From Deltaproteobacteria bacterium (lineage in GTDB: Bacteria; Desulfobacterota; DSM-4660; Desulfatiglandales; HGW-15), in NCBI GenBank assembly GCA_020342025.1, contig CP070840.1:3099050-3118870 (forward strand): a DNA stretch of 19,821 nt. Direction: 5' to 3'. Below are positions 1-18,803 of this stretch, one piece after another. The notes beneath the pieces are model-generated. The model saw only the letters and a list, made by a program, of their open reading frames with translations. It had not been told where the DNA came from and did no database searches. Both the position numbers and the translations under genes were made by a program. Within the stretch, counting starts at the first letter, position 1; the number at the start of each line of letters is the position of its first letter.

Positions 1-606
1 GGCGTAGTCCATGAAGCGCTTGAAATTGTCCAAGTCATAAACGGCCTGGGTTTGGATAAACTCTGCACCCGCGTCGATCTTTTTCTCAAATTTGATGAGC
101 TGAGGTTCAATGGGATTGGCCTCTGGGGTCACAATGGCACCAGCGCAAAAAGAGATGGCGCCATCCAGCTTATTGTCCCCCAGATCATTCCCCTTTTCCA
201 TCAGCCGAATGGTGGCCAAGAGCTGACTGGAATCCAAGTCAAAGACCCCTTTTGCCTCCTTGTGGTCCCCCAATATGACGGAGTCTCCTGTCAAACAGAG
301 CACGTTGTGGATCCCTCGACTGTGGGCAAAGAGCAGATCTGCTTGTAGGGCCAATCGATTGCGGTCACGGCAGGTCATCTGCAAAATGGGCTCGCCACCC
401 ATCTCTTTAACGAGCAAGGCCCCGCCAAGAGAAGGAAACCTCATCACCGAGCTCTGGTGATCGGTGATGTTCATACCGTCCACCTTTTCCCTCAAAAGCT
501 CCACATGGTGCTTCATCGTCTCCAGATTTGTTCCTTTGGGCGGTGCCACCTCGGAGGTGACCACAAATTTTCCCGATTTCAAGGCCTCTTTGAATGCAGA
601 AACCAT
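1..606 (-). CDS. metF: Methylenetetrahydrofolate reductase MetF (3' end outside window)
   Basis: Reduces 5,10-methylene-H4folate to 5-methyl-H4folate in the methyl branch of the Wood-Ljungdahl pathway. Only the first 202 codons are visible; the reading frame is open to the window edge, so the C-terminal third is missing here. It begins with ATG at 606-604 (MVSAFKEALKSGKFVVTSE). The TIM-barrel family signatures are present: the catalytic-type Glu in TSEVAPP (E19), the LTGDS flavin/folate loop with D108 (E. coli D120 equivalent), and the TQ pair (Q187, equivalent to the folate-contacting Gln of E. coli MetF). It lies 235 bp downstream of metV, the usual partner; in acetogens MetF and MetV form one enzyme. 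It contrasts with a second, divergent MetF-like gene at 8182-9063, which has lost Q187. MetF identity is firm; the exact electron donor is not visible. Confidence 0.93.
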   Translation of the reverse strand, partial: MVSAFKEALKSGKFVVTSEVAPPKGTNLETMKHHVELLREKVDGMNITDHQSSVMRFPSLGGALLVKEMGGEPILQMTCRDRNRLALQADLLFAHSRGIHNVLCLTGDSVILGDHKEAKGVFDLDSSQLLATIRLMEKGNDLGDNKLDGAISFCAGAIVTPEANPIEPQLIKFEKKIDAGAEFIQTQAVYDLDNFKRFMDYA

Positions 607-640
607 GTTTCAAACCCCTCATTTGAAAAGTCGATTTAGG

Positions 641-691
641 AATTGAGGAATTGTGAATTAGGAAATTCCTGAATCTCTAAATTCCTCAATT
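641..691. repeat. Inverted repeat built of AATTGAGG-type units
   Basis: AATTGAGGAATT at 641-652 is matched exactly in reverse complement by AATTCCTCAATT at 680-691, with an inner AGGAA/TTCCT pair in the loop (660-670). On either strand this would fold into a long AT-rich hairpin. The units recur roughly every 7-8 bases (AATTGAGG, AATTGTG, AATTAGG). It sits in the 235-bp space between metV and metF (607-841). It could be an mRNA processing or stabilising hairpin, but it has no U-run that would mark a clear terminator. Confidence 0.6.
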
Positions 692-700
692 ATCTTATGT

Positions 701-714
701 TTTAGGCACTTTAG
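701..714. repeat. Dispersed CTAAAGTGCC-type repeat, partial copy
   Basis: TTTAGGCACTTTAG is the exact reverse complement of 14 bases at 12221-12234 and closely resembles the copy at 822-844. It lies in the metV-metF spacer, which holds no gene (607-841). Confidence 0.55.
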
Positions 715-821
715 CCCCGTCTGCCATAGTGACCAGGGCTTCATACCGTCTGGTTGCGCTGGTGTCCCTCCTCATCCTCCCTTATTTAATTCTATCTGAG
801 AAGGCATTGGCGGGCAGGTCA

Positions 822-844
822 CCTTAGTTCACTTTAGGCACTTA
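822..844. repeat. Dispersed CTAAAGTGCC-type repeat overlapping the metV stop codon
   Basis: On the minus strand this reads as phased TAAGTGCC / TAAAGTGAA / CTAAGG units. Sixteen bases (AAGTGCCTAAAGTGAA, 843-828) are identical to 12224-12239. The metV TAA stop (844-842) forms the start of the repeat, so the repeat abuts or trims the 3' end of the gene. Confidence 0.6.
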
Positions 845-1495
845 ACCTGCTGCCAATTTCCATTTTCCTGGGGTTGGCTCTCCCTGGTGATTTCTCGGTT
901 TCTGGTACCTTCTCATGGCATCCAGACGATCCAGCTCCTTTAGACGATTGTAAATCAAGGTCCAGACACAGTCCTTGTAGGTATCGATCTCGCATTTTCC
1001 GTTATTGGTGCCCCCACAGGGACCATTAACCAGTCCTTTGTGGCACGAAGTCACGGGACAGATCCCTCCTGTCTCTCCTATGATGCAGGTCCCGCACTGG
1101 GTGCATATCTCGTCAAACTGACCTATGGAGGTCTCCTTCCCTATGAACAAAGTGTCCAACGCGGGGACAACCATTTTTTGCAGATGCCGTGCAACGGTCT
1201 GCACCCCAAAAGCGCAGGTCATGATGAGTAAGACATCCGCTTGATGAATCTTTTGGCCATATTCCGTCAAGGCCTCTCCGGTCAAGTTGTCACAGGCCAC
1301 CGGGAGCACTGTGGTTCCGGTCACCAGCTTTCCTCGCTCGGACAACCGTTCTTTCATGGCCTGCACCTCGGGCTCCCCACCGGTTCGGGTCAGGGTGACG
1401 CACGTGCCGCACCCAATAATGAACACCCTGTTCAAACCCTCCAGCAGGCGGTCTATATCTTCCTCGGCCTTTTGCTTGGTGATCGATCTAATCAT
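842..1495 (-). CDS. metV: MetV-type methylenetetrahydrofolate reductase partner subunit
   Basis: Zinc/Fe-S subunit that pairs with MetF and passes electrons to its flavin. The 217-aa protein has the family hallmarks: an N-terminal IGCGTC motif (C29, C32) followed by TRTGGEPEV, a central Rossmann-like part, and a Cys-rich C-terminal half with CTQCGTC (C131, C134, C137), C146, C151, C160 in NGPCGG, C168 and C176. The last set can hold Fe-S clusters or zinc as in acetogen MetV. ATG at 1495 is preceded by GAGGGATAGG. Upstream on the same strand is the NuoF-GltD fusion (148-bp gap) and downstream is metF. In acetogens the equivalent gene is linked to different electron-input modules (HdrABC-MvhD or an RnfC-like protein); here the neighbours are NuoE/NuoF/NuoG-like proteins. 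The family call is very likely; the electron partner is inferred from context. Confidence 0.92.
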   Translation of the reverse strand: MIRSITKQKAEEDIDRLLEGLNRVFIIGCGTCVTLTRTGGEPEVQAMKERLSERGKLVTGTTVLPVACDNLTGEALTEYGQKIHQADVLLIMTCAFGVQTVARHLQKMVVPALDTLFIGKETSIGQFDEICTQCGTCIIGETGGICPVTSCHKGLVNGPCGGTNNGKCEIDTYKDCVWTLIYNRLKELDRLDAMRRYQKPRNHQGEPTPGKWKLAAG

Positions 1496-1643
1496 AAACC
1501 TATCCCTCTTGCTTTACGGAGTTATGTTCATAAGCTCATCTAAACACGGGTTCTGAGTGAACATGCAATGATGGAAAACAAGGGACCAAGAGCGCATTAA
1601 GATTCCTCTCCGCGCACTATTCCAATACTCCAGTTTTCCATGC

Positions 1644-4600
1644 CTACTTCTCTTCCAGGTCACACCTGAGGCATCGCACAGCCTCCTTTTGGGCACCATC
1701 CTCATCCAGACCTCTCTCCACTTCTCTGAAGTCTTTTACCCTTTCCTCCGGTTCCTCCAGTTCAGTCTTAATCCTTGGTTTTTCCTCCAGCGTCTCCTCC
1801 TCGAGGGCAAGGCGTTTATCCTCTGGCATGGCCGTTTTCTCATCCAAGATTTCTATCCTGCCCTTCTCTCCCCTAAGGTACCTGGCGATGGATAAGGCTG
1901 CCCTCCGGCCTGAAGCGATGGCCCGTATCACGTAGGTGGGACCTGTGGTAAAATCCCCACCGGCAAAGATCCCTGGGACATTGGTTGACAGCGTATTTTC
2001 ATCCACCACGAGAGACCCCCACAAGGCCCTCTCCAATTGACTATCCCGGTCCAGAAAGGAGATGTCCGGCGCCTGGCCAATGGAAACAATGACGCTCTCG
2101 GCCTCCACATCTTGTCGCGCGCCTTCGTCAAATGAGGGATTGAAAGTTCCCTCATCATCAAAGACGCTTACACACCGAGCGAACTCAATGCCAACCACCT
2201 TGCCATTCTCATGTCTAATCTGCCTGGGCCCCCAGGAAGGATTGATCACGATCCCCTCATCAATGGCCTCTCCCACCTCTTTCTCCCAGGCCGGCATTTC
2301 GTCTCTGGCCTCAAGGCAGAACAGCTGCACATCGCTGGCACCCATCCTGAGGGCGGTTCTTGCCACGTCAATGGCCACGTTACCACCCCCTATCACGACC
2401 ACACGGCCTTTTAACCGAATCTCCTCCCCCTTTTTCACATCCGTCAAGAACTTGAGACCATAGTAGAGCCCCTCCAGGCCCTCCTGTTCCCCAGGAATAC
2501 CGATCCTCTTGCTCGCCTGAGCGCCAGCTGCCACGAACACGGCACTGTACCCCTCACGCATGAGGTCATTGACCGTATGCCTGGCGTCGATGGGTGAGTC
2601 ATAGCGGATTTCCACACCGCAGCTTTCAATATACCGAATCTCTTCCTCGATAACCTGCCGCGGAAGACGGAATTCGGGCACGGTGATGCCCAACATGCCT
2701 CCCCCCACAGATTGCGCCTCAAAGACGGTGACCCCATATCCCATCTTGGCCAAAAAGTATGCGCAGGTAAGCCCCGATGGCCCTGCACCCACCACAGCCA
2801 CCTTCTGATTCGTTTTCACAGGAAAGGGTTCTCTGGCCGCGCCAATATGATCGAAGTACCAGTCCGCCGCATAGCGCTTCAGGGAGCGGATGGCAACCGG
2901 CTCATCCAGTTCACCCCGACGGCACTTAAACTCGCAGGGATGGATACAAATTCGACCACAGACAGCAGGAAACGGATTTCTCTCCCTAATAATCTCTGTG
3001 GCCTTCTCATAGTTGCCCGCAGCAATGGCAGCCACATAATTGGGCACATCGATCCCGGCGGGACAGGCATGCTGACAGGCGGAAATGACCATGGAATCAC
3101 ACGTGGCCCCGGCACACCGGTGTTCCAGAATGTGGTCCTCATACTCCTTTAAGAAGAAGTTGAGCGTGGATAGTGCGGGCTTGGGAGCGGTCTGCCCCAG
3201 GCCACAAAGGGAGGCGTCCACGACGGTTTCACCCAATTCCCTGATGCTCTCAATGTCCTCGATTCTGCCTCTGCCCTGGGTAATTCTTGTCAAGACCTCC
3301 AACAGCTGAGTCGTCCCCAGTCTACAAGGCGCACATTTTCCACAGGATTCGGACTGGGTAAAGCTCAGGAAGAAACGGGCGATCTCCACCATGCAATTGT
3401 TTTCATCCATGACCACCATCCCGCCCGAACCCATGATGGCACCAATGCGTTGGAGGGTATCGTAATCGATAGGGAGATTCAGGTACTGGGTCGGCACACA
3501 ACCACCCGAAGGTCCTCCCATCTGAACCGCTTTAAATTGCCTGCCCTTGGGGATGCCCCCGCCAATATCGAAAACCACTTCCTTGACGCTCACGCCAATG
3601 GGGACCTCCACAAGCCCTGTGTTATTCACCTTACCGGCCAGAGAGAAGATCTTGGTTCCCTTGCTCTGCTCCGTGCCCACTTGGGCATACCATTCGGCTC
3701 CATTCTTGATGATCAAGGGCACATTGGCCCAGGTCTCCACGTTATTGATATTGGTTGGTTTACCGTCAAGCCCTGATTGGGCCGGGAAGGGCGGTCGGGC
3801 CCTGGGCATGCCCCGCTTTCCTTCAATAGAGGCCATGAGCGCTGTCTCCTCGCCGCAGACAAAGGCCCCTGCCCCCATCTTTAAGGAGAGCGCAAGGTGG
3901 AAACCGGTTCCCAGGATATTCTCCCCCAGGAGTCCTAGTTCGTTCATCTGCTCGATGGCGATCTGCAAATGCTCGACGGCGATCGGGTATTCCTCCCGCA
4001 CGTAGACGTAACCGTATTCTGCTCCCATGGCATAGGCACCGATGATCATGCCCTCGAGGACGGCGTGGGGATCCCCCTCCAAAACCGCCCTATCCATAAA
4101 GGCCCCCGGGTCCCCTTCATCCGCATTGCAGATAATATATTTGGGCTTTCCTTCTGCTTGGCGGGCAAATTTCCATTTCGCACCTGTGGGGAAACCGGCA
4201 CCACCCCGTCCCCTGAGTTTGGCTCTTGTCACTTCTTCGATGACCTGCTCAGGCGTCATCCGGGTGAGGGCCCTCACAACAGCCTGATAACCACCAGCAG
4301 CAATATAATGCTCCACATTTGTGGGATCGATTCGGCCGCAGTTGGCCAGCACCCTTCTCACTTGTTTCCGGTAAAAGGGGATTTGACTTCGATAGTAGAC
4401 GGGACTTCCTGTTTGTGGATCTCTATAGGATAGGCGATCCATGAACCGGTTCTGTTTTAGGGTAAGGGCCACCATTTCGGCCACATCTTCAGGACCCACT
4501 TCCTGGTATTGAACACCCAACGGATCGATGGACATGACAGGCGCTTTCGCACAAAAACCGTGGCATCCGGTGGAACGGACTTCCACTTGCCCCGCAAGGC

Positions 4601-4763
4601 CCTGCTTTTTTACTTCTTCCACAAGGGCATCGCGAACCTCAGCCGCACCATAGGCGCGACAGCCGGTCATGCAGACGTTTACACGAGTTTTCGCCTCATC
4701 CTCCTGGGCAAGAATCTTATTCCGATACCATTCCAGTTCTCCCGCAGACGAAAGCTGTTTCAT
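1644..4763 (-). CDS. NuoF-GltD fusion: NAD(H)/FMN flavoprotein joined to NAD(P)H/FAD oxidoreductase
   Basis: A 1039-aa fusion of two electron-transfer flavoproteins. Residues about 25-75 are a thioredoxin-like [2Fe-2S] domain (C31, C35, C67, C71). Residues about 110-545 are NuoF/HoxF-like, with the FMN/NADH motif RGRGGAGFPTG (184-194), ADEGDPGAFMDR (214-225) and the N3-type [4Fe-4S] ligands in SESCGKCAPC plus C520. From about residue 550 it becomes a GltD/NfnL-type protein: CxxxCP-type N-terminal Fe-S cysteines (C563, C567, C602, C606, C610, C614), a FAD-binding VVGAGPSGL (657-665), a second dinucleotide site VIGGGNVAID (790-799) and the terminal EAVRCLRC. It thus has room for two flavins and two nucleotides in one chain. 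The start ATG overlaps the nuoE stop by 4 bp, so the two are translationally coupled. No frameshift is seen, so this is a genuine fusion. It probably moves electrons between NAD(P)H, Fe-S partners and the neighbouring MetFV or NuoG-like proteins. Confidence 0.92.
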   Translation of the reverse strand: MKQLSSAGELEWYRNKILAQEDEAKTRVNVCMTGCRAYGAAEVRDALVEEVKKQGLAGQVEVRSTGCHGFCAKAPVMSIDPLGVQYQEVGPEDVAEMVALTLKQNRFMDRLSYRDPQTGSPVYYRSQIPFYRKQVRRVLANCGRIDPTNVEHYIAAGGYQAVVRALTRMTPEQVIEEVTRAKLRGRGGAGFPTGAKWKFARQAEGKPKYIICNADEGDPGAFMDRAVLEGDPHAVLEGMIIGAYAMGAEYGYVYVREEYPIAVEHLQIAIEQMNELGLLGENILGTGFHLALSLKMGAGAFVCGEETALMASIEGKRGMPRARPPFPAQSGLDGKPTNINNVETWANVPLIIKNGAEWYAQVGTEQSKGTKIFSLAGKVNNTGLVEVPIGVSVKEVVFDIGGGIPKGRQFKAVQMGGPSGGCVPTQYLNLPIDYDTLQRIGAIMGSGGMVVMDENNCMVEIARFFLSFTQSESCGKCAPCRLGTTQLLEVLTRITQGRGRIEDIESIRELGETVVDASLCGLGQTAPKPALSTLNFFLKEYEDHILEHRCAGATCDSMVISACQHACPAGIDVPNYVAAIAAGNYEKATEIIRERNPFPAVCGRICIHPCEFKCRRGELDEPVAIRSLKRYAADWYFDHIGAAREPFPVKTNQKVAVVGAGPSGLTCAYFLAKMGYGVTVFEAQSVGGGMLGITVPEFRLPRQVIEEEIRYIESCGVEIRYDSPIDARHTVNDLMREGYSAVFVAAGAQASKRIGIPGEQEGLEGLYYGLKFLTDVKKGEEIRLKGRVVVIGGGNVAIDVARTALRMGASDVQLFCLEARDEMPAWEKEVGEAIDEGIVINPSWGPRQIRHENGKVVGIEFARCVSVFDDEGTFNPSFDEGARQDVEAESVIVSIGQAPDISFLDRDSQLERALWGSLVVDENTLSTNVPGIFAGGDFTTGPTYVIRAIASGRRAALSIARYLRGEKGRIEILDEKTAMPEDKRLALEEETLEEKPRIKTELEEPEERVKDFREVERGLDEDGAQKEAVRCLRCDLEEK

Positions 4764-5257
4764 GCGTCTCTCTCTTCTCCTTTTTGCTTGCCATATTCGG
4801 CCATTATGGAGGTGACCTTTGGCGGAGAAAGCCTGCCAAAATAGGCCCGATTGATCATCATGGTTGGGGCAAGAAAACAGGCTCCGAGACAGGCCACAGT
4901 CTCAAGTGTGAACTGATAATCAGGGCTGGTCTCTCCCTCGTCCAGTTCAAGCTCCCGCTTCATGAGCCTCAATATGCTTCGCCCCCCTTTCACGTGACAG
5001 GCCGTGCCGCGACAGACTCTGACCACGTATTTGCCCTTCGGTTCCAGTGAGAACCCCGCGTAAAAGGTGATCACCCCTTGTACCAGACTGGGAAAGATGT
5101 TCAGGGCCTCTGCGATGGTTTCGATGGATTCCGGAGGGATATAACCAAATGCCTCCTGAACATCCTGGAGCAATGGGATCAAGGCCCAGGTTTGGCCCCT
5201 GTGCCTATCAACAATGCCTTCCAGCTGCGTCCAGTCTATTGGTTTTGGTTCTGTCAT
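4760..5257 (-). CDS. nuoE: NuoE/HoxE-like [2Fe-2S] subunit
   Basis: A 165-aa protein of the 24-kDa complex I/NAD-linked hydrogenase subunit family. The N-terminal helical part (residues 10-75, with LLQDVQEAFGYIP and VQGVITFYAGF) precedes the thioredoxin fold carrying the [2Fe-2S] ligands C82 and C87 (CRGTAC), then C123 and C127 (CLGAC). In soluble NAD-linked formate dehydrogenases and electron-bifurcating hydrogenases this subunit docks on NuoF. Its stop overlaps the ATG of the NuoF-GltD gene (ATGA at 4763-4760), consistent with a stoichiometric complex. It follows the NuoG/FdhA-like gene by 82 bp; that spacer carries a perfect 12-bp palindrome TTGTATATACAA (5286-5297) whose meaning is unclear. 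Confidence 0.93.
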   Translation of the reverse strand: MTEPKPIDWTQLEGIVDRHRGQTWALIPLLQDVQEAFGYIPPESIETIAEALNIFPSLVQGVITFYAGFSLEPKGKYVVRVCRGTACHVKGGRSILRLMKRELELDEGETSPDYQFTLETVACLGACFLAPTMMINRAYFGRLSPPKVTSIMAEYGKQKGEERDA

Positions 5258-5339
5258 GGTTCTTCCTTGTTTTTATGGTAACTGCTTGTATATACAAAAA
5301 TTAACCATTTGAAATGTTTAAGGTGTTGCTCGTCCACGC

Positions 5340-7994
5340 CTATGGTTTTTCAATCTTCACATTCACCACTTTCCACCCAGGGGAATCTTCCCTGCCCAAT
5401 GGGGTCATTCCTAAAAGCTGCCGCGCATTGTTTTCTTCAAAGGCCATGGGGACAAAAATAAATCCTGGAGTCAGATTCCTCTTAAAGGCAACCTCTCTGG
5501 ATATGGACCCGTGAGGGGAAAAAATTCTGATCTCATCCCCCTGCGCCAGGTTCAGTTTGCTCCCCTCTTCAGGAGAGATCTCCACCTCCCCTTTCAGGCC
5601 AAAATCACGTATGCGCTCAGAGCGGCCTGTCCTGGTGCCACTTCCCAAATGGAATCTCGATGACCCCAGGATGGCCTTGAAGGGATAGCCCTCTTGGCCT
5701 GCCTCAGCCTCTGCTGCGCTCATGGGTGTGAAGCGAATCGGTTCTCCTTCTCCCTGGCGATTAAATAGCCTCATTGGACTTGTCACTTTAATCCAACCCT
5801 GCGCCCTCTCCTCCCCCAGGTTTGCATACATGGCTACACATCGTCTGATTTCAGCGCTGATTCGCTGAACCGAGGCGTACTGTTCCGGATGCCCCATGCG
5901 CTGCGCCAATAGATTCAGGATCTCCCAATCCGCTTTTGCATCACCGGGTGGAGGAACCACGGGCTCAAAAGATTGAATTCTGCCCTCCATATTGGTGAAA
6001 CAGCCCCCTTTTTCGCTGAATGCGGCCCCTGGCAATACCACATCTGCCAGCTCTGTGGTCTCATTGGAAAAGATATCCTGGACCGCAAGAAACTCTAAAT
6101 TATGGAATGCCTTGCGGACCCGTTCAGGCTCGGGGAGAGTTCTAAGGGGATTTTCGCCCATCACGTATAAGGCCTTGAGGTTACCCTTCTCCGCTTCCTC
6201 AACCATGCGAATCACGTCGAGTCCCGGATCAGGAGAGATTCTCACCCCCCAGGTCTGCTCCCAGTATTTGCGGTTTCCCGCTCTGGTGATTGGCTGGCGG
6301 CCAGGAAGGAAATCAGGCACCGTTCCCATATCCCATGCCCCAAACTGGTTGTTTTCCATGGCAAGAAAATAGACGCCTCTCCCTTCATCACCCAGGCTTC
6401 CGGTCAACAGTGCCAGATTGATCAGGGCATCCATGGTTTGAATCCCGTGCCGTTGTTGTAAAACGCCCTGCCCCACCACAAAGCTTATCCTTTTTCCGTT
6501 CAGCAAATCTGCTGTCTTTTCCATGAGGTCCAGATTCAGGCCAGTGACACGGGACGCCTTTTGAAGGTCCAAAGAGGCGAGGCCCTCGCGGTAGAGATCA
6601 AAACCTTCAGTGTATCGGCTGATGAATGTTGCATCATGGGCCTCCCTCCTAAAGAGAATGGCCGCAAGGGCATTTATCAGAGCAGAATCACTTTGGGGGG
6701 CAAGGGGCAGCCAGATCTTGGAGAAAGGCACGAGTTCCGTTCTTCTCGGATCGGCCACGAGCATTGGGACGCCTTTCATCCTGGATGCCCTTTTCAAGTA
6801 ATAGCCCGCAACCGGCAGGGAATGGACGGGATTGGCCCCAATAACAAAGATCACCTCTGCATGTTCCAGTGCAGACAATGACGTAACCTGACCACCCTCT
6901 CCTAGCCTCTCATTTACTGGTTTCAATGTGGGACGCCCCGCCAAGTAACTGCCGTTGTCCACATTATTCGTTCCCAGGATGGCGCGGGCTATTTTTTGAA
7001 AGAGGTAATTCTCCTCGTTGCTGCATTTGGATGAACCGAGGAATCCAATGCTTTGGGGGCCGTTTTTCTCTTTAACAGAGGTAAGTCGTTCAGCCACCAG
7101 GTGGAGTGCTTCCTCCCAAGTGCCCGGTGAGAGTTCACCATTTCTTTTAATCAATGGGCTGATCAGTCTTTGTGGCGCATTCAAGAAGTCATGGGCAAAA
7201 TGTCCGCGGACACAGAGGGAGGATGTGTTGACCGTCCCATCCCCGTGGGAAGGATTCGCCTCAATCACCTGCCCGTCCACAGATCCCATCACAAGGGAAC
7301 ACCCCACTCCACAGAACCCGCAGATGGTTGGGGATTCTTTTTGTGGGGAACCCACATAGCGGGTATTTCTGGTCACCAAAGCGCCTGTTGGGCATATGGA
7401 GACGCAGGTTCCGCAAAAGGTGCAGCTGGATTTGTCCAAAGGTAAATCATGTGCGGTCGCGGGTCGCGATTTGAATCCCCTCAGGTTGTAGTCAATGGCC
7501 CCCACCACGACGAGTTCGTGGTCAGCACGAATGCATTTCCCGCAGAGAATGCACTTACTCAGGTCCCTTGTAATAAAGGGATTTGCCTGTTCCAGACCCG
7601 TATAGTGGGGCATGGGATGAAGCCCTATTGAACCCACACCCAACTCAGCCGCAACTTGCCTCAGTTCACAGCGGTTCCCCTGGTTGCATACGATACAGGA
7701 CTCGGGATGGTTGGCCATCATCAAGCGGATAATATTTGTTCGGTGTTTCTTGATGGTGGTGGAGTCTGTCTTGATGGCCATATTTGAAGATACGGGGGTG
7801 ACACAAGAGGCCATGATACGGCCACTATTTTGATCTTCCACCAGGCAGAGGCGACACGCTCCAGCGGGCGCCAAGTGGGTGTGATGGCAAAGGGTGGGGA
7901 TCTTTATGCCGTTTTCCCTGGCTGCATCCAATATGCTGATCCCAGGCCGACAACTTATATTTTTCCCGTTTATGGCAAGACTAATCTCCTGCAA
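5340..7994 (-). CDS. NuoG/FdhA-like iron-sulfur molybdopterin-fold protein lacking formate dehydrogenase catalytic residues
   Basis: 884 aa, starting at a TTG (7994) with a good AGAGGAG ribosome site 8 nt upstream. Domain order: [2Fe-2S] ferredoxin (C36, C47, C50, C64); His-Cys3 cluster site (H96, C100, C103, C109); two-cluster ferredoxin (C148, C151, C154 with Asp158 in place of the fourth Cys; C191, C194, C197, C201); a [4Fe-4S] motif C225, C228, C232, C261; then the molybdopterin domains and a C-terminal dinucleotide-like domain (about 770-880). By family it would be annotated as the alpha subunit of NAD-linked formate dehydrogenase. Anchored on GTNNVD, the Sec/Cys ligand position of E. 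coli FdhF (U140) is Ala352 (codon GCG, not TGA) and the following His is Gly. Anchored on the NN..GA.DMG motif, the catalytic Arg333 is Ala. Formate oxidation is therefore unlikely; an electron-wiring role like NuoG, or a different substrate, is more plausible. Confidence 0.85.
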   Translation of the reverse strand: MQEISLAINGKNISCRPGISILDAARENGIKIPTLCHHTHLAPAGACRLCLVEDQNSGRIMASCVTPVSSNMAIKTDSTTIKKHRTNIIRLMMANHPESCIVCNQGNRCELRQVAAELGVGSIGLHPMPHYTGLEQANPFITRDLSKCILCGKCIRADHELVVVGAIDYNLRGFKSRPATAHDLPLDKSSCTFCGTCVSICPTGALVTRNTRYVGSPQKESPTICGFCGVGCSLVMGSVDGQVIEANPSHGDGTVNTSSLCVRGHFAHDFLNAPQRLISPLIKRNGELSPGTWEEALHLVAERLTSVKEKNGPQSIGFLGSSKCSNEENYLFQKIARAILGTNNVDNGSYLAGRPTLKPVNERLGEGGQVTSLSALEHAEVIFVIGANPVHSLPVAGYYLKRASRMKGVPMLVADPRRTELVPFSKIWLPLAPQSDSALINALAAILFRREAHDATFISRYTEGFDLYREGLASLDLQKASRVTGLNLDLMEKTADLLNGKRISFVVGQGVLQQRHGIQTMDALINLALLTGSLGDEGRGVYFLAMENNQFGAWDMGTVPDFLPGRQPITRAGNRKYWEQTWGVRISPDPGLDVIRMVEEAEKGNLKALYVMGENPLRTLPEPERVRKAFHNLEFLAVQDIFSNETTELADVVLPGAAFSEKGGCFTNMEGRIQSFEPVVPPPGDAKADWEILNLLAQRMGHPEQYASVQRISAEIRRCVAMYANLGEERAQGWIKVTSPMRLFNRQGEGEPIRFTPMSAAEAEAGQEGYPFKAILGSSRFHLGSGTRTGRSERIRDFGLKGEVEISPEEGSKLNLAQGDEIRIFSPHGSISREVAFKRNLTPGFIFVPMAFEENNARQLLGMTPLGREDSPGWKVVNVKIEKP

Positions 7995-8055
7995 GAGTAT
8001 TTGCTCCTCTAGTTTCTAGGGTCTCAACTTGATTGATTAGGTAAAACCATTGATT

Positions 8056-8186
8056 TTTGACGCTTTTGTAAAAGCCCCAGACACAAGGCACGCAAATCTT
8101 GAGGAATGAGGCGTACTCATCGCTACGCTGCAATGAAGAAAGATGCAGCGTAACGCCCTAGATGGGGTTTTTCCGGAAGCGTCAAA
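8056..8186. repeat. MITE-like hairpin element between two redox genes
   Basis: A roughly 130-bp element bounded by imperfect inverted repeats. The left arm at 8056-8078 begins TTTGACGCTT and ends AAAAGCCCC; the right arm at 8164-8186 begins GGGGTTTTT and ends AAGCGTCAAA. About 18 of 23 positions pair, including the outer 10. Inside is a second stem, CTACGCTGCA near 8132 against TGCAGCGTAA near 8145. There is no ORF. I recall elements with TTTGACGC ends as common small repeats in Desulfobacterota genomes. The right end supplies the TGA stop of the MetF-like gene (8184-8182). The rest of the 187-bp spacer (7995-8181) holds only the ribosome site of the downstream gene. Confidence 0.65.
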
Positions 8187-9063
8187 GTTTTTTCAACTTG
8201 GCAGCGTCCAGATAAAATCTTAACTTATCTTCCCCCCCAATGGTGATGATGTGGATGCCTTGGCACAAGTCTTTCACGCCAGATACGATCTCGGTAAATA
8301 TTTCAATACTCGCCTTTTGTCGGTCGGTCGCCCTTGCCAGCTTCTTGATGATCCAGTCGGGCACCAGGCCTGATTTGAGGTGTCTGTTGAGGAATTGGGC
8401 CATTCCAGCGGTTCTTAGTATCATCACCTCTGCAATGACGGGGACCCCGAATGTCTTGACTTCTTTGACAAATTTCTCAAATAACGCCAAATCGAACACC
8501 GGGGTGGTCAGAAAATAGCCTGTGCCCAGCTTCGTCATCTCCTCCATTTCCCGCATCTCCAGTTCAGGCACATTTTTCCCCCATTTGGATTCGACCCCAG
8601 AGCCAAGGGTGAATTCGGCCCTGGAAGGAAGCTCTTTTCCGTCCACCGTATGCCCTTCACGTAGATGTTCCAAAACGGAGCTCAACTTCCCTGAATCCAC
8701 ATGGAAAAACATCATCTCCTGAAGGCTGTCCCCAGTAATCCGGTAATCTTCCGTAAAAACGAGAAGGTTATCAACGCCCGTCTCGTGGGCCTGTATGAGA
8801 TCTTTTTGGAGCTGCAACCTGTTTTTCTCGCGCGTGGTCGTCTGGTAGATGGCCTCAAACCGGTTTTGCTTCAGGACCTCACAGGTCCTCAGGGTGCCTC
8901 CCACAATGCCCTCTATGTCCAATTCTGGCACAGCAACACCGTCCACACGCCCTCTGACCAACTCCAGCCTTTTTATGACCTCTTCGGGCCCTTCATCAAC
9001 GGGAGGTTGTATTTCAGAGGTGACCACAAATTTATTTTTCTCAAGGGCTTCTTTTAGCTTCAT
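8182..9063 (-). CDS. Divergent MetF-like (methylenetetrahydrofolate reductase family) protein
   Basis: A 293-aa TIM-barrel protein of the MetF family, whole in this window, starting at ATG 9063 (MKLKEALEKNKFVVTSE). It keeps the N-terminal Glu (E17 in TSEIQPP) and the acidic residue of the flavin loop (D106 in FTEDYR). The usual LTGD loop has become FTED, and the TQ pair that contacts folate is TT (T186-T187). The paralogue at 1-606 keeps both. Sequence between the two is clearly different, so this is an old paralogue rather than a recent copy. It is the first gene of the redox cluster downstream of the response regulator. It may be a second folate/flavin subunit, a paralogue acting on another C1 carrier, or a flavin-binding electron-transfer subunit. 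The last residues (KLKKL) are followed at once by a stop lying in the repeat element. Confidence 0.82.
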   Translation of the reverse strand: MKLKEALEKNKFVVTSEIQPPVDEGPEEVIKRLELVRGRVDGVAVPELDIEGIVGGTLRTCEVLKQNRFEAIYQTTTREKNRLQLQKDLIQAHETGVDNLLVFTEDYRITGDSLQEMMFFHVDSGKLSSVLEHLREGHTVDGKELPSRAEFTLGSGVESKWGKNVPELEMREMEEMTKLGTGYFLTTPVFDLALFEKFVKEVKTFGVPVIAEVMILRTAGMAQFLNRHLKSGLVPDWIIKKLARATDRQKASIEIFTEIVSGVKDLCQGIHIITIGGEDKLRFYLDAAKLKKL

Positions 9064-9165: not shown

Positions 9166-9738
9166 CTAGGCTAAGCCTAGCAGTTGGGCCACTTCTTGCC
9201 TTAGCTGTGGAAGAGGTAAGGGTTTTGAAAAGCATAGATCTGCGCCGTAATCCTTCATTTTCTTGAATTTGTCGTCGTCGAGATAGGCTGAGAGCACGAT
9301 GATCTTTGTATCCTTGGTCTCTTCATCTGACTTTATCTTCTTGCAGACATCATACCCCTTGATATCAGGCATCATAATATCCAGGATCAAGAGATGTGGC
9401 TTGAAATGATTGACCTGAATCCCGGCCTCAAAGCCATCCGAGGCCGAAATTATCTCATAATCATACGTCTCCTCTTCCAGTGCCTGAACAATCGTTTCCA
9501 CGATAATAGGGTCGTCATCCACGATGAGGATCCGCTTCCTCTCGCTAACGATCTCCTTTTCTGGAATGGGTATGCCCTGCCTGCGCATGAAATCTTCCAG
9601 ATCAAACTTTTTGATACGTCTATGCCCCCCCACGGTCCTATACGCCGGAATATGACCGGCCTCGATCCAGTTGATAATGGTTTTGGGGGAGACACTGCAG
9701 TATTTGGACGCCTGGAAAACAGTGAAAATATCATCCAT
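9166..9738 (-). CDS. Response regulator with N-terminal MerR/excisionase-type HTH
   Basis: A 190-aa transcription regulator with the DNA-binding domain first, which is the reverse of most response regulators. Residues 1-52 form a winged MerR/BldC/excisionase-like HTH (FTVFQASKYCSVSPKTI, then AYRTVGGHRR as the wing). Residues 68-188 form a receiver domain with the acidic pair D74-D75, phosphoacceptor D120 (LLILDIMMPD), S150 and K172. ATG at 9738. It lies between a histidine kinase upstream (same strand, 288-bp AT-rich gap) and the MetF-like/NuoEFG-like cluster downstream, making it a good candidate regulator of that cluster and perhaps of itself. The kinase-regulator pairing is inferred from adjacency. 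Confidence 0.9.
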   Translation of the reverse strand: MDDIFTVFQASKYCSVSPKTIINWIEAGHIPAYRTVGGHRRIKKFDLEDFMRRQGIPIPEKEIVSERKRILIVDDDPIIVETIVQALEEETYDYEIISASDGFEAGIQVNHFKPHLLILDIMMPDIKGYDVCKKIKSDEETKDTKIIVLSAYLDDDKFKKMKDYGADLCFSKPLPLPQLRQEVAQLLGLA

Positions 9739-10026: not shown

Positions 10027-11865
10027 TCAGGAGAGTGAGTCAGAATGTTCTTGATGCATAGGGAGGGTGATGGTGAAGGTTGTCCCTGATCCCCATTTGC
10101 TGGATACGCGTATATCCCCTCCGTGATCTTTAATAAATCCATAGCAAACGGATAGCCCGAGACCCACATCTTTGACGCTATCTTTGGTGGTAAAAAAGGC
10201 ATCAAAAATCTTACTGAAGTTTTCTTCGCGGATTCCTGTCCCTGTATCCGTGATTTCCACATATATGGTCTCCTCTCTCCCCGTGCTCTTCACAGTCAGG
10301 GTTCCCCCATCCGGCATGGCGTCCCTTGCATTGGCGATCATGTTGAGAAATACCTGGCGGAGCTGGTTTCTGGAGGCATACACTTTTCCCAGATCTCCGG
10401 ATAGAGAGGCTGAAATACGTATACTGTTCTCCAGCAATTGTTTCCTGACTAGGAGCAATATCTCGTCCAATACCTGATTCACATCCGTGATCTGCCGCGT
10501 TTCCTCATCTGGTTTTGAGAAGCTAAGCATTTTTCTGAGCAATTCGGTGAGGCGTTCGGTTTCAGACAGGGCCATATCAAGAATCTTTCTCCTCTTGTTC
10601 TCGGGAGTGACTTCAGTTTTCAGGAGCTCCAGGGTATTCATGATGCCATACAGGGGGTTGTTTAATTCATGGGCGATCTGCGAAGTTAATCTCCCCATGG
10701 CCGCTAACTTCTCGGACTGAAGCAGCTTTTCCTGGGTTTCTCTCAATTGACACTCCATGTCCAACCGTTCACTTAAATCCACAAAAATGCCCACTGACGC
10801 GATCTCTCTTCCTTGGGCATCATAGATAATGGCTGCGGAGAGATTGCCTTCAATAATCTCCCCATCGCGCCTGATATAAAGGATTGGATAGGACCTCAAT
10901 CTACCAAGACCCCCATATTCCGGGCTCCGCATCATTTTCATCACCTTTCTGGCCACGGTCTCGGGATAGATCTTTTCAATATTCATCCTGCCAATCACTT
11001 CTTCCGCCTTATACCCTAGGATCTCTTCGGCCCCTCGGTTCCACATGATGATATTTCCCTGCAAATCCGTGGCTATGATGGCGTTGGGCGAGTTTCTTAT
11101 AATCTTGTTCAAGAAGTCGTGGGCCTCCCTGAGTTCATCCTCCATCTGTTTTCTCTGAGACAGATCCACATTGATTCCTTCATAACCTAGAACATGGCCA
11201 TTCTGATCGTACCTTGCATGGCCGGTGTGCAAGACCGGAATCGCTTTCCCGTCTTTCCGCTTGAAGAGGACCTCATAATCAATGACCCGGCCATCCCGTT
11301 CGATCATCTCTTGAAATATCACGCGATCTTCCGGTTTCAAATACAGTTCCTTGGCGATGTCGATCTTAAGAAACTCCTCTTTATTTTCATAACCTAACAT
11401 GTCCAGTAGGGCCTTGTTGGCATCCAGGAACCTCCCCTCTTTGCTGCTTTTGTAGACCCCTACGGCCACGTTCTCAAAGAGTCTTTTGTATTCTTCTTCT
11501 TTAGACCTGATTCTTTCTTCTGCCTCCTTTTTCTCGGTAATATCTTTGAATATACTCACTTTGGAGGTTGTTCCGTCCGAGTTCCTCAAAGGGAACTCGA
11601 CCAGGTCATACGTGCGCTCTCTGGGGGAAATCTCATGTTGCCAGCTGACAGTTCCCCCGGCGAAAACCTCTTCTGCCCGACACCATGGGCAAAGTTCATC
11701 CTCCTTGTGCAGCACTTGGTAGCACTTTCTGCCTATCCCCTCACCGAATTCTCTGATCATGGCCTCATTCATATATTCTATGGTCAGATCCTCATCCACC
11801 ACGTAGATGCCATCTATTAGGGCGTCAAGGATAGGGGCAAATTTATGAATCTCCTTGTCGATCAT
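10027..11865 (-). CDS. PAS-PAS-PAS sensor histidine kinase
   Basis: A 612-aa cytoplasmic kinase with no membrane segment visible. Three PAS domains lie at about residues 10-110, 125-238 and 250-368, followed by a HisKA dimerisation domain with H399 in SQIAHELNNP and an HATPase domain with N512 (NMIANARDA), DTGTGI (540-545) and GLGLSVCYGF. The first PAS carries C48 and a CPWC pair (C59, C62), a Cys pattern found in some redox- or metal-sensing PAS domains. The absence of a transmembrane region points to an internal cue such as redox state or a metabolite. Start ATG 11865 has AGTGAGGG just upstream. The nearby HTH-receiver protein is its likely partner. Confidence 0.92.
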   Translation of the reverse strand: MIDKEIHKFAPILDALIDGIYVVDEDLTIEYMNEAMIREFGEGIGRKCYQVLHKEDELCPWCRAEEVFAGGTVSWQHEISPRERTYDLVEFPLRNSDGTTSKVSIFKDITEKKEAEERIRSKEEEYKRLFENVAVGVYKSSKEGRFLDANKALLDMLGYENKEEFLKIDIAKELYLKPEDRVIFQEMIERDGRVIDYEVLFKRKDGKAIPVLHTGHARYDQNGHVLGYEGINVDLSQRKQMEDELREAHDFLNKIIRNSPNAIIATDLQGNIIMWNRGAEEILGYKAEEVIGRMNIEKIYPETVARKVMKMMRSPEYGGLGRLRSYPILYIRRDGEIIEGNLSAAIIYDAQGREIASVGIFVDLSERLDMECQLRETQEKLLQSEKLAAMGRLTSQIAHELNNPLYGIMNTLELLKTEVTPENKRRKILDMALSETERLTELLRKMLSFSKPDEETRQITDVNQVLDEILLLVRKQLLENSIRISASLSGDLGKVYASRNQLRQVFLNMIANARDAMPDGGTLTVKSTGREETIYVEITDTGTGIREENFSKIFDAFFTTKDSVKDVGLGLSVCYGFIKDHGGDIRVSSKWGSGTTFTITLPMHQEHSDSLS

Positions 11866-12419: not shown

Positions 12420-12779
12420 ATGAAGTTGGCTGATATTAAGGAAACTTTGCATGCGGAGGTCATCGTTGGGCATGAAGACCTGGATGAATATGTCACGGCC
12501 GGCACTGGAAGTGATTTGATGAGCGATATACTGCGAGGACCCACAAATGGTGTTCTCTTGTTAACTGGCCTCAACAATATCCAAGTGGTTCGTACAGCAG
12601 TCATTGCGGGCGTAAAGGCCGTGGTACTGGTACGAGGAAAGATGCCCTCAGCAGAGATGATCAGCCATGCCCATGAACACAAGCTACCTCTTTTGTCTAC
12701 CCCCTTTACCATGTATTCCTCTTGCGGGAGGTTATTCAGCAAGGGGCTTCGAGGTGTTGAGCAAAAAGTTTCCCGCTGA
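12420..12779 (+). CDS. DRTGG-domain protein
   Basis: A 119-aa protein made of one DRTGG-type domain, a regulatory fold also found in phosphotransacetylase-like and CBS-containing proteins; its ligand is not known to me. Recognisable features are the VTAGTGSDLMSDIL stretch at the domain start and the alternating strand/helix pattern of VLLLTGLNN, VVLVRGK and LPLLSTPFTMYSS. ATG at 12420, with GGAGAG about 14 bases upstream. It is the first gene of a DRTGG / RsbW-like ATPase / H-cluster protein set. In anaerobes, particularly Clostridia, I recall the same trio next to NuoE/NuoF and [FeFe]-hydrogenase genes, which suggests joint work in sensing or controlling hydrogen or ferredoxin metabolism. 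The role is inferred from that context. Confidence 0.82.
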   Translation: MKLADIKETLHAEVIVGHEDLDEYVTAGTGSDLMSDILRGPTNGVLLLTGLNNIQVVRTAVIAGVKAVVLVRGKMPSAEMISHAHEHKLPLLSTPFTMYSSCGRLFSKGLRGVEQKVSR

Positions 12780-12861
12780 TCTCATTCATCTAAACAGGCA
12801 AGATACTGATTTTCACCCTTAGAATTGGTTCTCCACCAGAAAATACTTGTATGAAGACAAA

Positions 12862-13323
12862 ATGCCAGCCCACGACAAACCCCAGCTAAGGAGAAGTTTC
12901 AAGATTGAAGCCAGGGATTTTCTTCGGGCGGGAGAGATTTCTCTCCAGGTTCAGAGAACCCTGAAGAACATAGGATTTGAAGGGGAACTGGTTCGGCGTG
13001 CTGCCATTTGTGCCTATGAGGCGGAGATGAATGTGGTCTTGCACGGCGGGGACGGGGCCTTCATGTTAACCGTACATTTCGAAGAAATTGTCCTTGATGT
13101 CAAGGACGATGGGCCCGGTATTGAGAATATTGAGCTGGCCCTAAAAGAAGGATATTCCACAGCAACACCGGAGCAGAGGGAGATGGGGTTCGGCGCTGGC
13201 ATGGGCCTTCCCAACATCAAGAAGAACGCAGATTCCCTTGAGATAAAATCTACCAAAGGGGCTGGGACGCATCTGACGATAGGACTTAAGGCAAGAAAGG
13301 ACGGTGGTGAGGTTAGTGGCTGA
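12862..13323 (+). CDS. RsbW/SpoIIAB-like ATP-binding protein (serine kinase/anti-sigma type)
   Basis: A 153-aa GHKL ATPase domain standing alone. The N box is EAEMN (E53, N57), the G1 box DDGPGIEN (82-89) and the G2 box GFGAGMGLPN (109-118). It has no histidine phosphoacceptor domain, as in anti-sigma factor/serine kinase proteins. I place the start at ATG 12862; an in-frame TTG at 12847 is an alternative. The 3' end overlaps the start of the H-cluster protein by about 20 bp, indicating coupled translation. With the DRTGG protein and the HydS-like protein it could form a kinase-type signalling unit that reads the state of the Fe-S protein. No anti-anti-sigma partner is visible in the window. 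Confidence 0.82.
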   Translation: MPAHDKPQLRRSFKIEARDFLRAGEISLQVQRTLKNIGFEGELVRRAAICAYEAEMNVVLHGGDGAFMLTVHFEEIVLDVKDDGPGIENIELALKEGYSTATPEQREMGFGAGMGLPNIKKNADSLEIKSTKGAGTHLTIGLKARKDGGEVSG

Positions 13324-14596
13324 ATTATCCTCTGGCCCCAAACATGTAAACTATGTGGACGTTGATGAGGCGCTTTGCAACGGCTGTGTGCTGTGCATGA
13401 AGGTCTGTCCCACGAAAGCCATACGCGTCAAGGCCAGCAAGGCGCACCTGGAAGGGGTGTGCATCGATTGTGTAGAATGTGTTCGTGTGTGCCCGAGAGG
13501 GGCCATTAAAGCCGTGACCCACCAGGATTTCAACTTGGCGGAAAGTGACAATTACGCGGTTAGCGCTTCCACCGTTCTTTATTCACAGTTCGGCGAGAGT
13601 ATTTTGCCCAATGACATCCTGCTCGGGCTCAAGAGAATGGGCTTCAGGTACGTGCATGACCAGTCCTATACAAGCGAAATGTTTGGTTTTGCCCTCGGCG
13701 TGCATATCAAGCAAAGCAGGAAGATACCGGATTCATCCTTCCCCTTGATTTCACCGGTCTGCCCAGTCGTCGTCCGGCTCATCGCCTATCGGTTTCCATC
13801 CCTTCTTAAACACGTACTTCCCTTGGTCACGCCCCGTGAAATCGTGGCGAGGGAGGCAAAAAAGCGATTGCCCGCAAAATATGGGTCCCAAGCCGAACAG
13901 ATCAAGGTCTTACACATCACGCCCTGCCCGTCAAAAATGATCAGCATTAAGGAACCCGTGAATCAAACGCGTTCTTATCTTGACACCACAATAGGGATCA
14001 ACAAGATTCATGACGTTCTGAATAAGAACATTAAAGAAGTCGATGAGGATATCGTATTACACCATTCGAGTGGTCTGGGGCTTGGCTGGGGTATGTCTGG
14101 TGGGGAGATTGCTGGATTGGAGATGAATTGCCTTGCCATCTCTGGGCTCCAAGAGACCATCCGCTATTTAGAAAAAATTGAAATGGGATTACTCCAGGAC
14201 ATTGACTATCTGGAATTGAGGACCTGTCCCGAGGGCTGCCTTGGGGGACCATTCACCGTAGCGGACAAGTACCTGGCAAAAAACCATTTGCAGAAACTTA
14301 TCCAGATTTTTGGGGTAAAAACACGGGTCAAATACAACTATATTATAAAACTCTACAAAGAGGGATGGTTTCATACCGATCGGGAGCCCGCCCCTTCAGT
14401 TATCAAGCCCTCCCAGCGCGCCATCAACGAGCGCATCGAGAGGCTAAATCGCGTGGACAAGATCCTCAAAACGCTGCCCAGAAAGGAATGTGGGATCTGT
14501 GGGTCACCGGATTGCCGAACCTTTGCGGAGGATGTGGTGGATGGAAAGGCCCGCATTGAAAGTTGTTTGTTATTGCATGAAAACTTGGGCAAGTAG
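13304..14596 (+). CDS. HydS-like [FeFe]-hydrogenase-related sensory protein
   Basis: 430 aa. Residues 20-70 are a 2[4Fe-4S] ferredoxin (C25, C28, C31, C35; C53, C56, C59, C63). Residues about 85-345 are an [FeFe]-hydrogenase large-subunit-type domain. Residues about 393-425 are a 4-Cys FeS domain (C396, C399, C404, C421). All four cysteines that would hold the H-cluster are seen: C153 in SPVCP (L1), C208 in TPCPSK (L2), and C308 and C312 in CPEGCLGG (L3). L1 reads SPVCP instead of TSCCP, so the proton-relay cysteine is valine, as expected of sensory or slow forms rather than production hydrogenases. The start is GTG at 13304 or 13307, behind AAAGGA; ATG is absent nearby. The gene overlaps the ATPase gene. 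No hydrogenase maturase (HydEFG) genes lie in the window. Confidence 0.85.
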   Translation: MVRLVAELSSGPKHVNYVDVDEALCNGCVLCMKVCPTKAIRVKASKAHLEGVCIDCVECVRVCPRGAIKAVTHQDFNLAESDNYAVSASTVLYSQFGESILPNDILLGLKRMGFRYVHDQSYTSEMFGFALGVHIKQSRKIPDSSFPLISPVCPVVVRLIAYRFPSLLKHVLPLVTPREIVAREAKKRLPAKYGSQAEQIKVLHITPCPSKMISIKEPVNQTRSYLDTTIGINKIHDVLNKNIKEVDEDIVLHHSSGLGLGWGMSGGEIAGLEMNCLAISGLQETIRYLEKIEMGLLQDIDYLELRTCPEGCLGGPFTVADKYLAKNHLQKLIQIFGVKTRVKYNYIIKLYKEGWFHTDREPAPSVIKPSQRAINERIERLNRVDKILKTLPRKECGICGSPDCRTFAEDVVDGKARIESCLLLHENLGK

Positions 14597-14916
14597 CTGT
14601 TGTGCCTTGCGGGTGGATCAGGGGGTGAGATTATTGCTTGACAAAAAGCCCCTTGCCCCCTATTTTCCCCTGTGCTAAAGAGTGTTTTCTGCTCATCGTA
14701 GAAACTTCACTCTCTTTTGTGCCCCTCCACGGCCCAAAGGTTTTTCCGTTTTAGCCCCAATTGCATAAGGCTTTCGGTCGCGTTTCGTGTTAGTCAGAGG
14801 CATCTTTGTGACGACTTTCGAGTGCAGATGGTGATGTGTAAGGCATTAAGAGGCAATTTGCTACAATAAGGTTTTTGATTCGCTTTTTAGAAATTTTGAT
14901 CTTGAGACAAGAAAGA
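14597..14916. other. Intergenic region upstream of the cytochrome-rnf operon
   Basis: A 320-bp space with no credible gene. It contains the TTGACA/TATTTT pair at 14638-14666 and a TACAAT hexamer at 14862-14867 without a matching -35 box. I see no hairpin plus T-run terminator for the upstream operon. Confidence 0.6.
14638..14666 (+). promoter_or_regulatory. Candidate sigma-70-type promoter for the cytochrome-rnf operon
   Basis: TTGACA (14638-14643), exactly 17 bp, then TATTTT (14661-14666, 4 of 6 to TATAAT). It would give a leader of about 240 bases before the cytochrome ATG. Confidence 0.4.
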
Positions 14917-15618: not shown

Positions 15619-15681
15619 AGCAAATCACTCGAATTTAAACGCTGCGAGGCGCAATTCGTTCGTTGAGGAATTGACTGACAA

Positions 15682-18655: not shown

Positions 18656-18664
18656 GCTTCCATG

Positions 18665-18684
18665 GGGGAGCATGGGCACTCCCC
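18665..18684 (+). other. Short hairpin in the rnfG-rnfE gap
   Basis: GGGGAG (18665-18670) and CTCCCC (18679-18684) pair across an 8-base loop. No U-run follows, so it is not a standard terminator; it may slow decay or partly uncouple rnfCDG from rnfEA. The rest of the gap (18685-18803) shows nothing else. Confidence 0.35.
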
Positions 18685-18803
18685 GTACCCAGCGCCTGCG
18701 TAAAGAAATTCTATTGAAATCCATTATCTTACGGATTGGGCAGGCCTGAGCAAAATTTTTAGATGTTCATGGTGCAAATATAGAGCAAAGCAGGTATGAC
18801 CTT

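Follow-up and report, generated by a model that had tools for sequence, protein, structure and literature searches.

A conserved MetFV-NuoEFG-GltD gene cluster of Desulfobacterota as a candidate X-type methylene-tetrahydrofolate reductase electron system

A 19,821-nucleotide stretch of a Deltaproteobacteria bacterium genome (assembly GCA_020342025.1, contig CP070840.1, positions 3,099,050 to 3,118,870; hereafter the window) carries six genes on its minus strand, transcribed in the order metF2, nuoG/fdhA-like, nuoE, nuoF-gltD, metV and metF. On balance, and with moderate confidence, we read this cluster as one functional, reversible X-type MetFV-NuoEFG-GltD electron system for methylene-tetrahydrofolate (methylene-H4F) reductase, in which a complex-I-like module around a burnt-out formate dehydrogenase probably links methylene-tetrahydrofolate reductase (MTHFR) to NAD(P)H. 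The genes, their order and conservation, the cluster ligands, the replacement of a domain, the loss of an active site and a conflict between the MetV and MetF trees can all be read in the sequence itself. The gene arrangement is already published: in their X-type paragraph, Yi et al. (2021, PMC8515935) described homologues of NuoEFG encoded ahead of metFV in Dethiosulfatarculus sandiegensis and widely in Desulfobacterales and Chloroflexi, named the arrangement 'X-type' MTHFR (group III), guessed at bifurcation, and called the system unstudied. The possible new type of reductase proposed in a first-pass annotation of the window is therefore not new, either in its arrangement or in the idea of bifurcation; priority belongs to Yi et al., and what is added here is anatomy and evolutionary evidence. 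Our assignment to the X-type goes by gene arrangement, that is, metV and metF with NuoEFG homologues directly upstream. The X-type paragraph of that paper names no GltD fusion, ferredoxin-domain loss, dead formate dehydrogenase site or MetF2 and reports no enzyme work, and a literature search on Nuo-linked MetFV, with subscription papers mostly outside its coverage, gave nothing beyond it.

Pfam backs every gene name given to the cluster, and the six genes stand on one strand with the identities that the first-pass annotation had assigned to them from the open reading frames:

1..606, minus strand: metF, catalytic MTHFR subunit, cut by the window edge with the first 202 amino acids visible (PF02219, E 5.4e-27).
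842..1495, minus strand: metV, Fe-S/zinc-type adaptor subunit of 217 amino acids (PF12225, E 1.2e-34).
1644..4763, minus strand: nuoF-gltD fusion of 1039 amino acids (Pfam; solved relatives HydB and StnB, then StnC/NfnB for the GltD part).
4760..5257, minus strand: nuoE, 2Fe-2S thioredoxin-like subunit of 165 amino acids (PF01257, E 5.2e-50).
5340..7994, minus strand: nuoG/fdhA-like subunit of 884 amino acids with a TTG start, an Fe-S wire plus a formate dehydrogenase domain without the catalytic residues.
8182..9063, minus strand: metF2, divergent MetF paralogue of 293 amino acids without the folate-type Gln (PF02219, E 1.3e-15; alignment; AlphaFold2 model).

A PF12225 MetV with the C-terminal motif VNGPCGG next to a PF02219 MetF places the pair among MetFV-type MTHFRs. 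The ATG of nuoF-gltD overlaps the stop codon of nuoE as ATGA; promoter and terminator patterns in the window showed no excess over shuffled sequences.

The order of the cluster is conserved among relatives. Contigs were scanned with an alignment of the NuoG-like protein, giving 223 relatives, and the gene order recurs in the best 80 of these, which were analysed as loci (L numbers below), even where the NuoG-like proteins are just 46% identical. By title these 80 belong to Desulfobacterota or deltaproteobacteria, a few being labelled only Proteobacteria or 'bacterium', and they include Desulfatibacillum alkenivorans, Desulfosudis oleivorans, Desulfonema magnum and three Desulfoluna species. 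Genes were counted as adjacent when they stood in order on one strand (gaps are mostly short, exceeding 600 bases in L038, L063, L073 and L075), and loci without room on the contig were set aside (10 for NuoG-NuoE, 4 for NuoE-NuoF/GltD, 12 for NuoF/GltD-MetV, 10 for MetV-MetF and 8 for MetF2-NuoG). On this count NuoG and NuoE are adjacent in 70/70 loci, NuoE and NuoF/GltD in 66/66, NuoF/GltD and MetV in 54/54, and MetV and MetF in 44/44. MetF2 is the least constant member, adjoining NuoG in only 62 of 72 loci; the ten loci with room that lack it include L071, where a MetF2 fragment remains.

Since the first set had been chosen through NuoG, a second search was made via MetV in 395 genomes of the phylum (G numbers), 301 of which contain a MetV match at E 1e-8. 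MetV identity shows a gap, with 35 genomes at 55% or more and the next genome at 50%, and the NuoF-GltD fusion adjoins MetV in 32 of these 35. Two of the remaining genomes have a contig end less than 300 bases from MetV and the fusion on another contig, and G124 has just a 305-base fusion match at 50%. Conversely, 33 of the 35 genomes with a close fusion appear in the MetV list; the absent ones are G029, where the fusion runs to the contig end, and G173, where it probably does likewise. The fusion genomes were listed by hand. They had to match at 57% at least, with the match extending into GltD; G208, with 66% and a match ending at 626, was also taken, and the partial match at 57% in G104 and matches to NuoF alone were left out. 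The conserved order is not due to chance, and the fact that five of the six genes keep it wherever the contig is long enough backs the reading as a single system. Adjacency across relatives had been set beforehand as a test in the first-pass annotation, and it was passed by the NuoG-based loci and by the MetV-based genomes.

The NuoF part of the fusion has HydB of bifurcating hydrogenases and StnB (8OH5, checked as the Stn structure) as its closest solved relatives, ahead of complex I NuoF. The chain starts with an N-terminal 2Fe-2S domain, a domain for flavin mononucleotide (FMN) and NADH, and a 4Fe-4S domain, followed by GltD with two cluster motifs, a flavin adenine dinucleotide (FAD) site and a nucleotide site. 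Throughout the 61 NuoF-GltD rows (the row counts given here and for NuoE and MetV include duplicates, since L095 and L030 share a genome, as do L099 and L048), the cysteines of the N-terminal 2Fe-2S cluster (31, 35, 67, 71), of the B1 cluster (474, 477, 480, 520) and of GltD (563, 567, 602, 606, 610, 614, 1031, 1034) are invariant, as are the four NuoE cysteines in 76 rows. A NuoF of the HydB/StnB type with invariant 2Fe-2S and B1 ligands argues for the single system. Alignments to HydB and StnB stop at residues 557-587, and GltD occupies the place of their C-terminal 2x[4Fe-4S] ferredoxin-type domain; no Fer4-type Pfam domain was found in the NuoF-GltD chain. The possibly bifurcating NuoEFG-like module of the first-pass annotation thus holds up as to the kind of its NuoF, while its ferredoxin branch has become doubtful.

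The pair of NuoE and NuoF-GltD also occurs in other company. Relatives of about 50% identity adjoin an [FeFe] hydrogenase (L133), NuoH (L135) and a split molybdopterin protein (L138), suggesting a portable pair plugged into different partners, and such relatives with other partners, among them the hydrogenase and NuoH, favour the single-system reading. At L135 (1903-9740), NuoE, NuoF-GltD and a NuoG-like chain without formate dehydrogenase site residues stand beside NuoH, forming a complex I-type cluster with a GltD fusion. L116 carries an unfused NuoE/NuoF/short NuoG set without GltD, four genes ahead of a MetV of 50% identity. That the module of the window is itself a piece of complex I was considered and rejected: no membrane subunit (NADHdh or antiporter-type domain) occurs among the window genes scanned, and the related set beside NuoH was found only elsewhere, at L135.

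Formate dehydrogenases lead among the solved structures related to the NuoG-like chain, the best being NAD-linked enzymes of the FdhA-NuoEF type (e.g. 6TG9), and NCBIfam scores the chain higher as FdhA (511 bits, cut-off 666) than as NuoG (346 bits), both values being under the cut-off. Pfam still detects the molybdopterin domains (Molybdopterin, E 2.3e-66; Molydop_binding). In contrast to those enzymes, the window lacks the active-site Cys/Sec, His and Arg: A352 and G353 stand where the FdhA proteins of L123 and L130 have TGA-His, and A545 replaces the Arg of RGQNN. Across 86 rows (the window and 85 relatives), the metal ligand at position 352 is Cys in three, all Desulfoluna, and neither His at 353 nor the RGQNN Arg at 545 occurs in any (0/86 each). 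The selenocysteine-type FdhA of L123 and L130, with an in-frame TGA (read as selenocysteine) at the same position together with His and Arg, served as positive controls, and a working formate dehydrogenase was ruled out by the three lost positions. The FdhA/NuoG-like protein is thus 'catalytically altered', as the first-pass annotation had put it, with Ala-Gly for Sec-His and Ala for the RGQNN Arg. The 18 Fe-S cysteines are kept in the window and the 85 relatives wherever covered, with Val at C47 as the sole exception, and relatives share on average 70% identity with the window chain over the Fe-S part, against 55% over the Mo part and 42% at the C-terminus. The Fe-S wire is kept while the former active site drifts, and descent from a formate dehydrogenase with a decayed active site is the best explanation for this chain. 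Retention of the NuoG-like Fe-S ligands alongside loss of the Cys, His and Arg of the former site would be expected of the single system that we favour.

One 4Fe-4S cluster of the wire has an unusual ligand: its fourth Cys is replaced by Asp158 in 80 of 84 rows. L115 and the three Desulfoluna rows have Cys, as do all nine of the related chains (FdhA, HydA and NuoG) compared at the equivalent position from the examined loci. Asp ligation shifts the potential of a cluster, as in Pyrococcus ferredoxin. The Desulfoluna loci L063, L075 and L080 lack MetF2 and its regulator and have Cys at both 352 and 158; they are perhaps an older state of the module.

We also considered whether the NuoG/FdhA-like chain is still a metal enzyme acting on another substrate, making the module a third catalytic entry point beyond the wire. 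The retained molybdopterin domains, the invariant Fe4S4 cysteines and the Cys at the metal-ligand position of the three Desulfoluna rows would suit such an enzyme, but the equivalents of His353 and Arg545 are missing in 86/86 rows, Cys is present in just 3/86, identity falls outside the Fe-S part as given above, and the D. magnum copy lacks the C-terminal part, all of which makes this very improbable.

The histories of MetV and MetF provide a further line of evidence. All 12 MetV cysteines are invariant in 87 rows, and the window MetF keeps the Glu, GD and QTQ motifs of the family alignment; the AlphaFold2 model of MetV was weak, with a predicted local distance difference test (pLDDT) score of 66, and was dropped after a fold search with it had returned nothing under E 0.001. 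The MetV alignment used the best 120 of 3470 matches of the protein search, close relatives only; trees were built from 35 chosen MetV-MetF pairs, MetVs from below the identity gap being sampled at 15 chosen places (L116-L130). X-type MetV and X-type MetF each form a single group (100/99). X-type MetF groups with the MetF of the HdrA-GltD-type operons L123, L124, L125 and L130 and of L126 (99/96), while X-type MetV groups with seven other MetVs (100/100), apart from the MetVs of these five loci; L145, which holds the fifth HdrA-GltD pair, branches far off in either tree. In approximately unbiased (AU) tests, the MetF grouping forced on MetV was rejected (p-AU 0.00013), as was the MetV grouping forced on MetF (p-AU 0.0023). 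The conflict would mean that metF remained in place when the redox module was exchanged and metV with it, the behaviour that an adaptor should show.

In L123, L124, L125, L130 and L145, the slot upstream of metV holds a single protein of 1473-1559 amino acids. Three such large proteins were scanned with Pfam, namely the slot proteins of L130 and L145 and the L142 protein beside MetF2, and they contain FAD-oxidoreductase, Fer4_20/GltD and ferredoxin domains; we read the large slot proteins as HdrA fused with GltD. The order at L145 is MetF2, HdrA-GltD-type protein, MetV, MetF. A MetV that appears to follow its module, and an HdrA-GltD that seems to fill the slot in five pairs, support the single-system reading. 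The first-pass proposal that the NuoEFG-like module is tied to MetFV is strengthened to this extent, MetV history fitting inheritance with the module; it does not carry over to the second MetF, which need not be a subunit and is absent in 10/72 loci.

Other partners of MetV and MetF were seen in passing. At L129 (242-4263) and L116 (13340-17384), genes for the small and large subunits of a [NiFe] hydrogenase immediately precede metV-metF on one strand and may form with them an H2-linked methylene-H4F reductase; the two MetVs pair 100/100 in the tree. Downstream of the HdrA-GltD/MetV/MetF set, L123 (11610-16758) and L130 (12010-17212) have NuoE, an unfused HydB-type NuoF and the TGA-containing FdhA, likely an NAD-linked formate dehydrogenase beside an Hdr-type MTHFR. 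A 679-amino-acid protein of L146 (10319-12355) joins an MTHFR domain to a MetV-type C-terminal domain and adjoins a MetF2-like gene without the regulator.

For the physical assembly, the electron path, its bifurcation or confurcation and its direction, we infer the following. The MetF flavin would interconvert methylene- and methyl-H4F, and MetV would be the electron relay that joins MetF to the Fe-S wire of the NuoG/FdhA-like chain, a chain that may now serve wiring and docking. The wire would lead to the FMN of NuoF, the presumed site of reaction with NAD(H); next to this FMN, as in HydBC/StnAB, would sit the 2Fe-2S cluster of NuoE and that of the NuoF N-terminus. GltD would provide a second flavin and an NAD(P)H site on the branch that ends at ferredoxin in HydB/StnB enzymes. 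D. alkenivorans and D. magnum are complete oxidisers and Desulfoluna species are incomplete oxidisers; in complete oxidisers the natural direction is probably methyl-H4F oxidation. With NAD+ this oxidation would need a low-potential co-donor, because it is uphill by ~23 kJ/mol (folate couple at -200 mV, NAD at -320 mV, ferredoxin at about -500 mV). In the reductive direction, the same potential drop could lift a second electron pair. HydBC and StnAB use ferredoxin as their bifurcation partner; with the ferredoxin-type domain missing here, either the GltD clusters would take ferredoxin or the partner would be a pyridine nucleotide.

The nearest characterised module is Stn (StnABC, 8OH5), which, as described in PMC7483475 and PMC10482914, has NuoE, a HydB-type NuoF, GltD and NuoG/FDH-like domains encoded beside metVF. 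It differs in that GltD and NuoG share one chain (StnC), whereas in the window GltD sits on NuoF and the NuoG-like chain is without GltD, and in that StnB keeps the C-terminal ferredoxin-type clusters B3/B4. This likeness is the basis of an alternative with two enzymes in one operon, a stand-alone ferredoxin-dependent MetFV (2S type) and a re-partitioned Stn-type transhydrogenase balancing NADH, NADPH and ferredoxin for the same pathway. The domain set is the same, Stn of Sporomusa ovata was purified alone, without MetVF, despite lying beside metVF (PMC7483475), and the MetFV of C. ljungdahlii, as presented in PMC8515935, works with ferredoxin alone. On the other hand, the ferredoxin-type domain of StnB is missing. 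The nucleotide loop of GltD, YRR in StnC and NfnB, is CLE in the window, and its first column across the 61 rows holds Tyr in 27, Cys in 33 and Ser in 1, so that 34/61 lack the Tyr of the YRR-type loop; with both changes neither ferredoxin nor NADPH use is secured. In this loop an Arg pair favours NADPH and an acidic residue favours NADH. Moreover, MetV tracks the module and MetF does not, and a free transhydrogenase has no reason to bring its own MetV. Overall we regard two separate enzymes as rather unlikely.

Several observations nevertheless weigh against the single electron system that we prefer. Adjacency alone cannot prove a complex, because Stn adjoins metVF in S. ovata yet was purified as a separate transhydrogenase. 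The conflict between the trees would be equally expected had a nuoG-nuoE-nuoF-metV block recombined without contact to MetF, the tree rows were picked by hand, and the groups were named after the trees had been seen. The missing ferredoxin domain of NuoF-GltD leaves the second acceptor doubtful, and the window, like about half of the family, has lost the NADPH-type Arg pair. In D. magnum (L073, 10001-14816), finally, the nuoG-like gene is interrupted: it ends at residue 736, and 2.1 kb with an AAA-type ATPase gene and an unknown gene separate it from nuoE; the cluster of D. alkenivorans (L048) is intact.

Other known systems share parts of this plan. In the Bfu family of Schut et al. (2022, PMC9304861), a core like BfuB/BfuC feeds a chain like BfuA/NuoG and the third partner varies; the available text of that paper does not mention MetF, methylene or MTHFR. 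The window has BfuC and a BfuB of the HydB type, complete with N-terminal 2Fe-2S, FMN and the B1 cluster, but not the IPR017896-type C-terminal ferredoxin clusters required of BfuB. The Moorella 6S-type MetFV-HdrABC-MvhD likewise joins MetFV to a multi-flavin Fe-S module, and its HdrA holds a GltD domain (PMC9430772, PMC8515935); Hdr subunits there stand against NuoEFG here, and no Hdr or MvhD gene was found by Pfam among the window genes scanned. The Acetobacterium woodii 3S-type MetFV-RnfC2, as outlined in PMC8515935, resembles the window in adding an NADH-binding subunit to MetFV and differs in having RnfC2 instead of a Nuo-like set; the Rnf cluster of the window is nearby but on the other strand. 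A metF-HdrABC arrangement has been described in Seep-SRB1g (Murali et al., PMC10553843).

The recurrence of GltD raises the tentative and, to our mind, unlikely idea that it is the second-acceptor site of NADH-linked methylene-H4F reductases, with electrons split or merged among methylene/methyl-H4F, NADH and a second pyridine nucleotide, without ferredoxin. Its occurrence in Moorella-type HdrA would fit by analogy. Two papers report that the S. ovata HdrA has no GltD domain (PMC9430772) and that the second acceptor of the Moorella MTHFR complex is not established (PMC8515935); the former, and the absence of the NADPH-type Arg pair in about half of X-type GltD, speak against the idea. If it were true, the cluster would encode a bifurcating machine of the Bfu kind with a flavin-nucleotide site at the end of its low-potential arm, and the Asp-ligated cluster in the wire would tune this machine to a substrate near -200 mV.

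Among the members of the system, MetF2 is the one of which we are least sure. Its AlphaFold2 model (pLDDT 88) has MTHFR 1v93 as best Foldseek match with a template modelling (TM) score of 0.75, agreeing with the 'divergent MetF paralogue' of the first-pass annotation. It is well conserved (mean identity 75%) and keeps the catalytic Glu17 and nearly always Asp106. The Gln common to MetF and solved MTHFRs, which has a role in folate binding, is absent in 14/14 aligned MetF2 sequences. Upstream of it in the window lie two regulatory genes that the first-pass annotation did not mention:

9166..9738, minus strand: HTH_17/MerR-type plus receiver-domain regulator of 190 amino acids (Pfam), the conserved partner gene of metF2.
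10027..11865, minus strand: PAS histidine kinase of 612 amino acids, probable partner of the regulator (Pfam; relatives upstream in many loci).

The HTH-receiver gene stands upstream of MetF2 in 64/65 rows with room (63/64 contigs, L149 and L029 being the same contig of 12,135 bases counted twice), with gaps of up to 570 bases, and the pairing holds in Nuo and HdrA-GltD settings alike. Outside the 65 rows are L116, L123, L124, L125, L129 and L130, whose sequences (32-40% identity) were taken as ordinary MetF. The ten MetF2-less loci with room gave no regulator match above 34% identity. In L141-L145, L148 and L150, the regulator-MetF2 pair lies beside a ~1480-1560-amino-acid protein with GltD similarity (Pfam: L142, L145) and without a Nuo set. 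Being the least constant gene, tied to a response regulator and also found beside HdrA-GltD-type proteins, MetF2 need not be a subunit. It may instead be a folate- or flavin-sensing partner of the regulator that sets expression of the downstream MetFV module, as their near-constant pairing in both settings, their joint absence and the missing folate-type Gln would suggest. However, MetF2 retains the MTHFR fold with its Glu and Asp, is well conserved as first gene of a redox operon, and regulators often adjoin the operon they control without binding its products; we hold the sensor role to be possible, with our expectation leaning the other way.

Desulfobacteraceae are complete oxidisers to which much of the carbon turnover at the sea floor is attributed, and they mostly run acetyl-CoA oxidation by this pathway (PMC11887813); given that use, the X-type enzyme may shape acetate burning in marine sediment. 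The cluster yields testable predictions, namely that there is no ferredoxin domain, that the Fe-S wire is indispensable, that MetV acts as the adaptor and that GltD is the second site.

The remainder of the window (12420-19821, plus strand) encodes a DRTGG protein, a small HATPase protein and an Fe-only-hydrogenase-like protein with an FeS domain, continuing with a class III cytochrome c and then the Rnf-type cluster.

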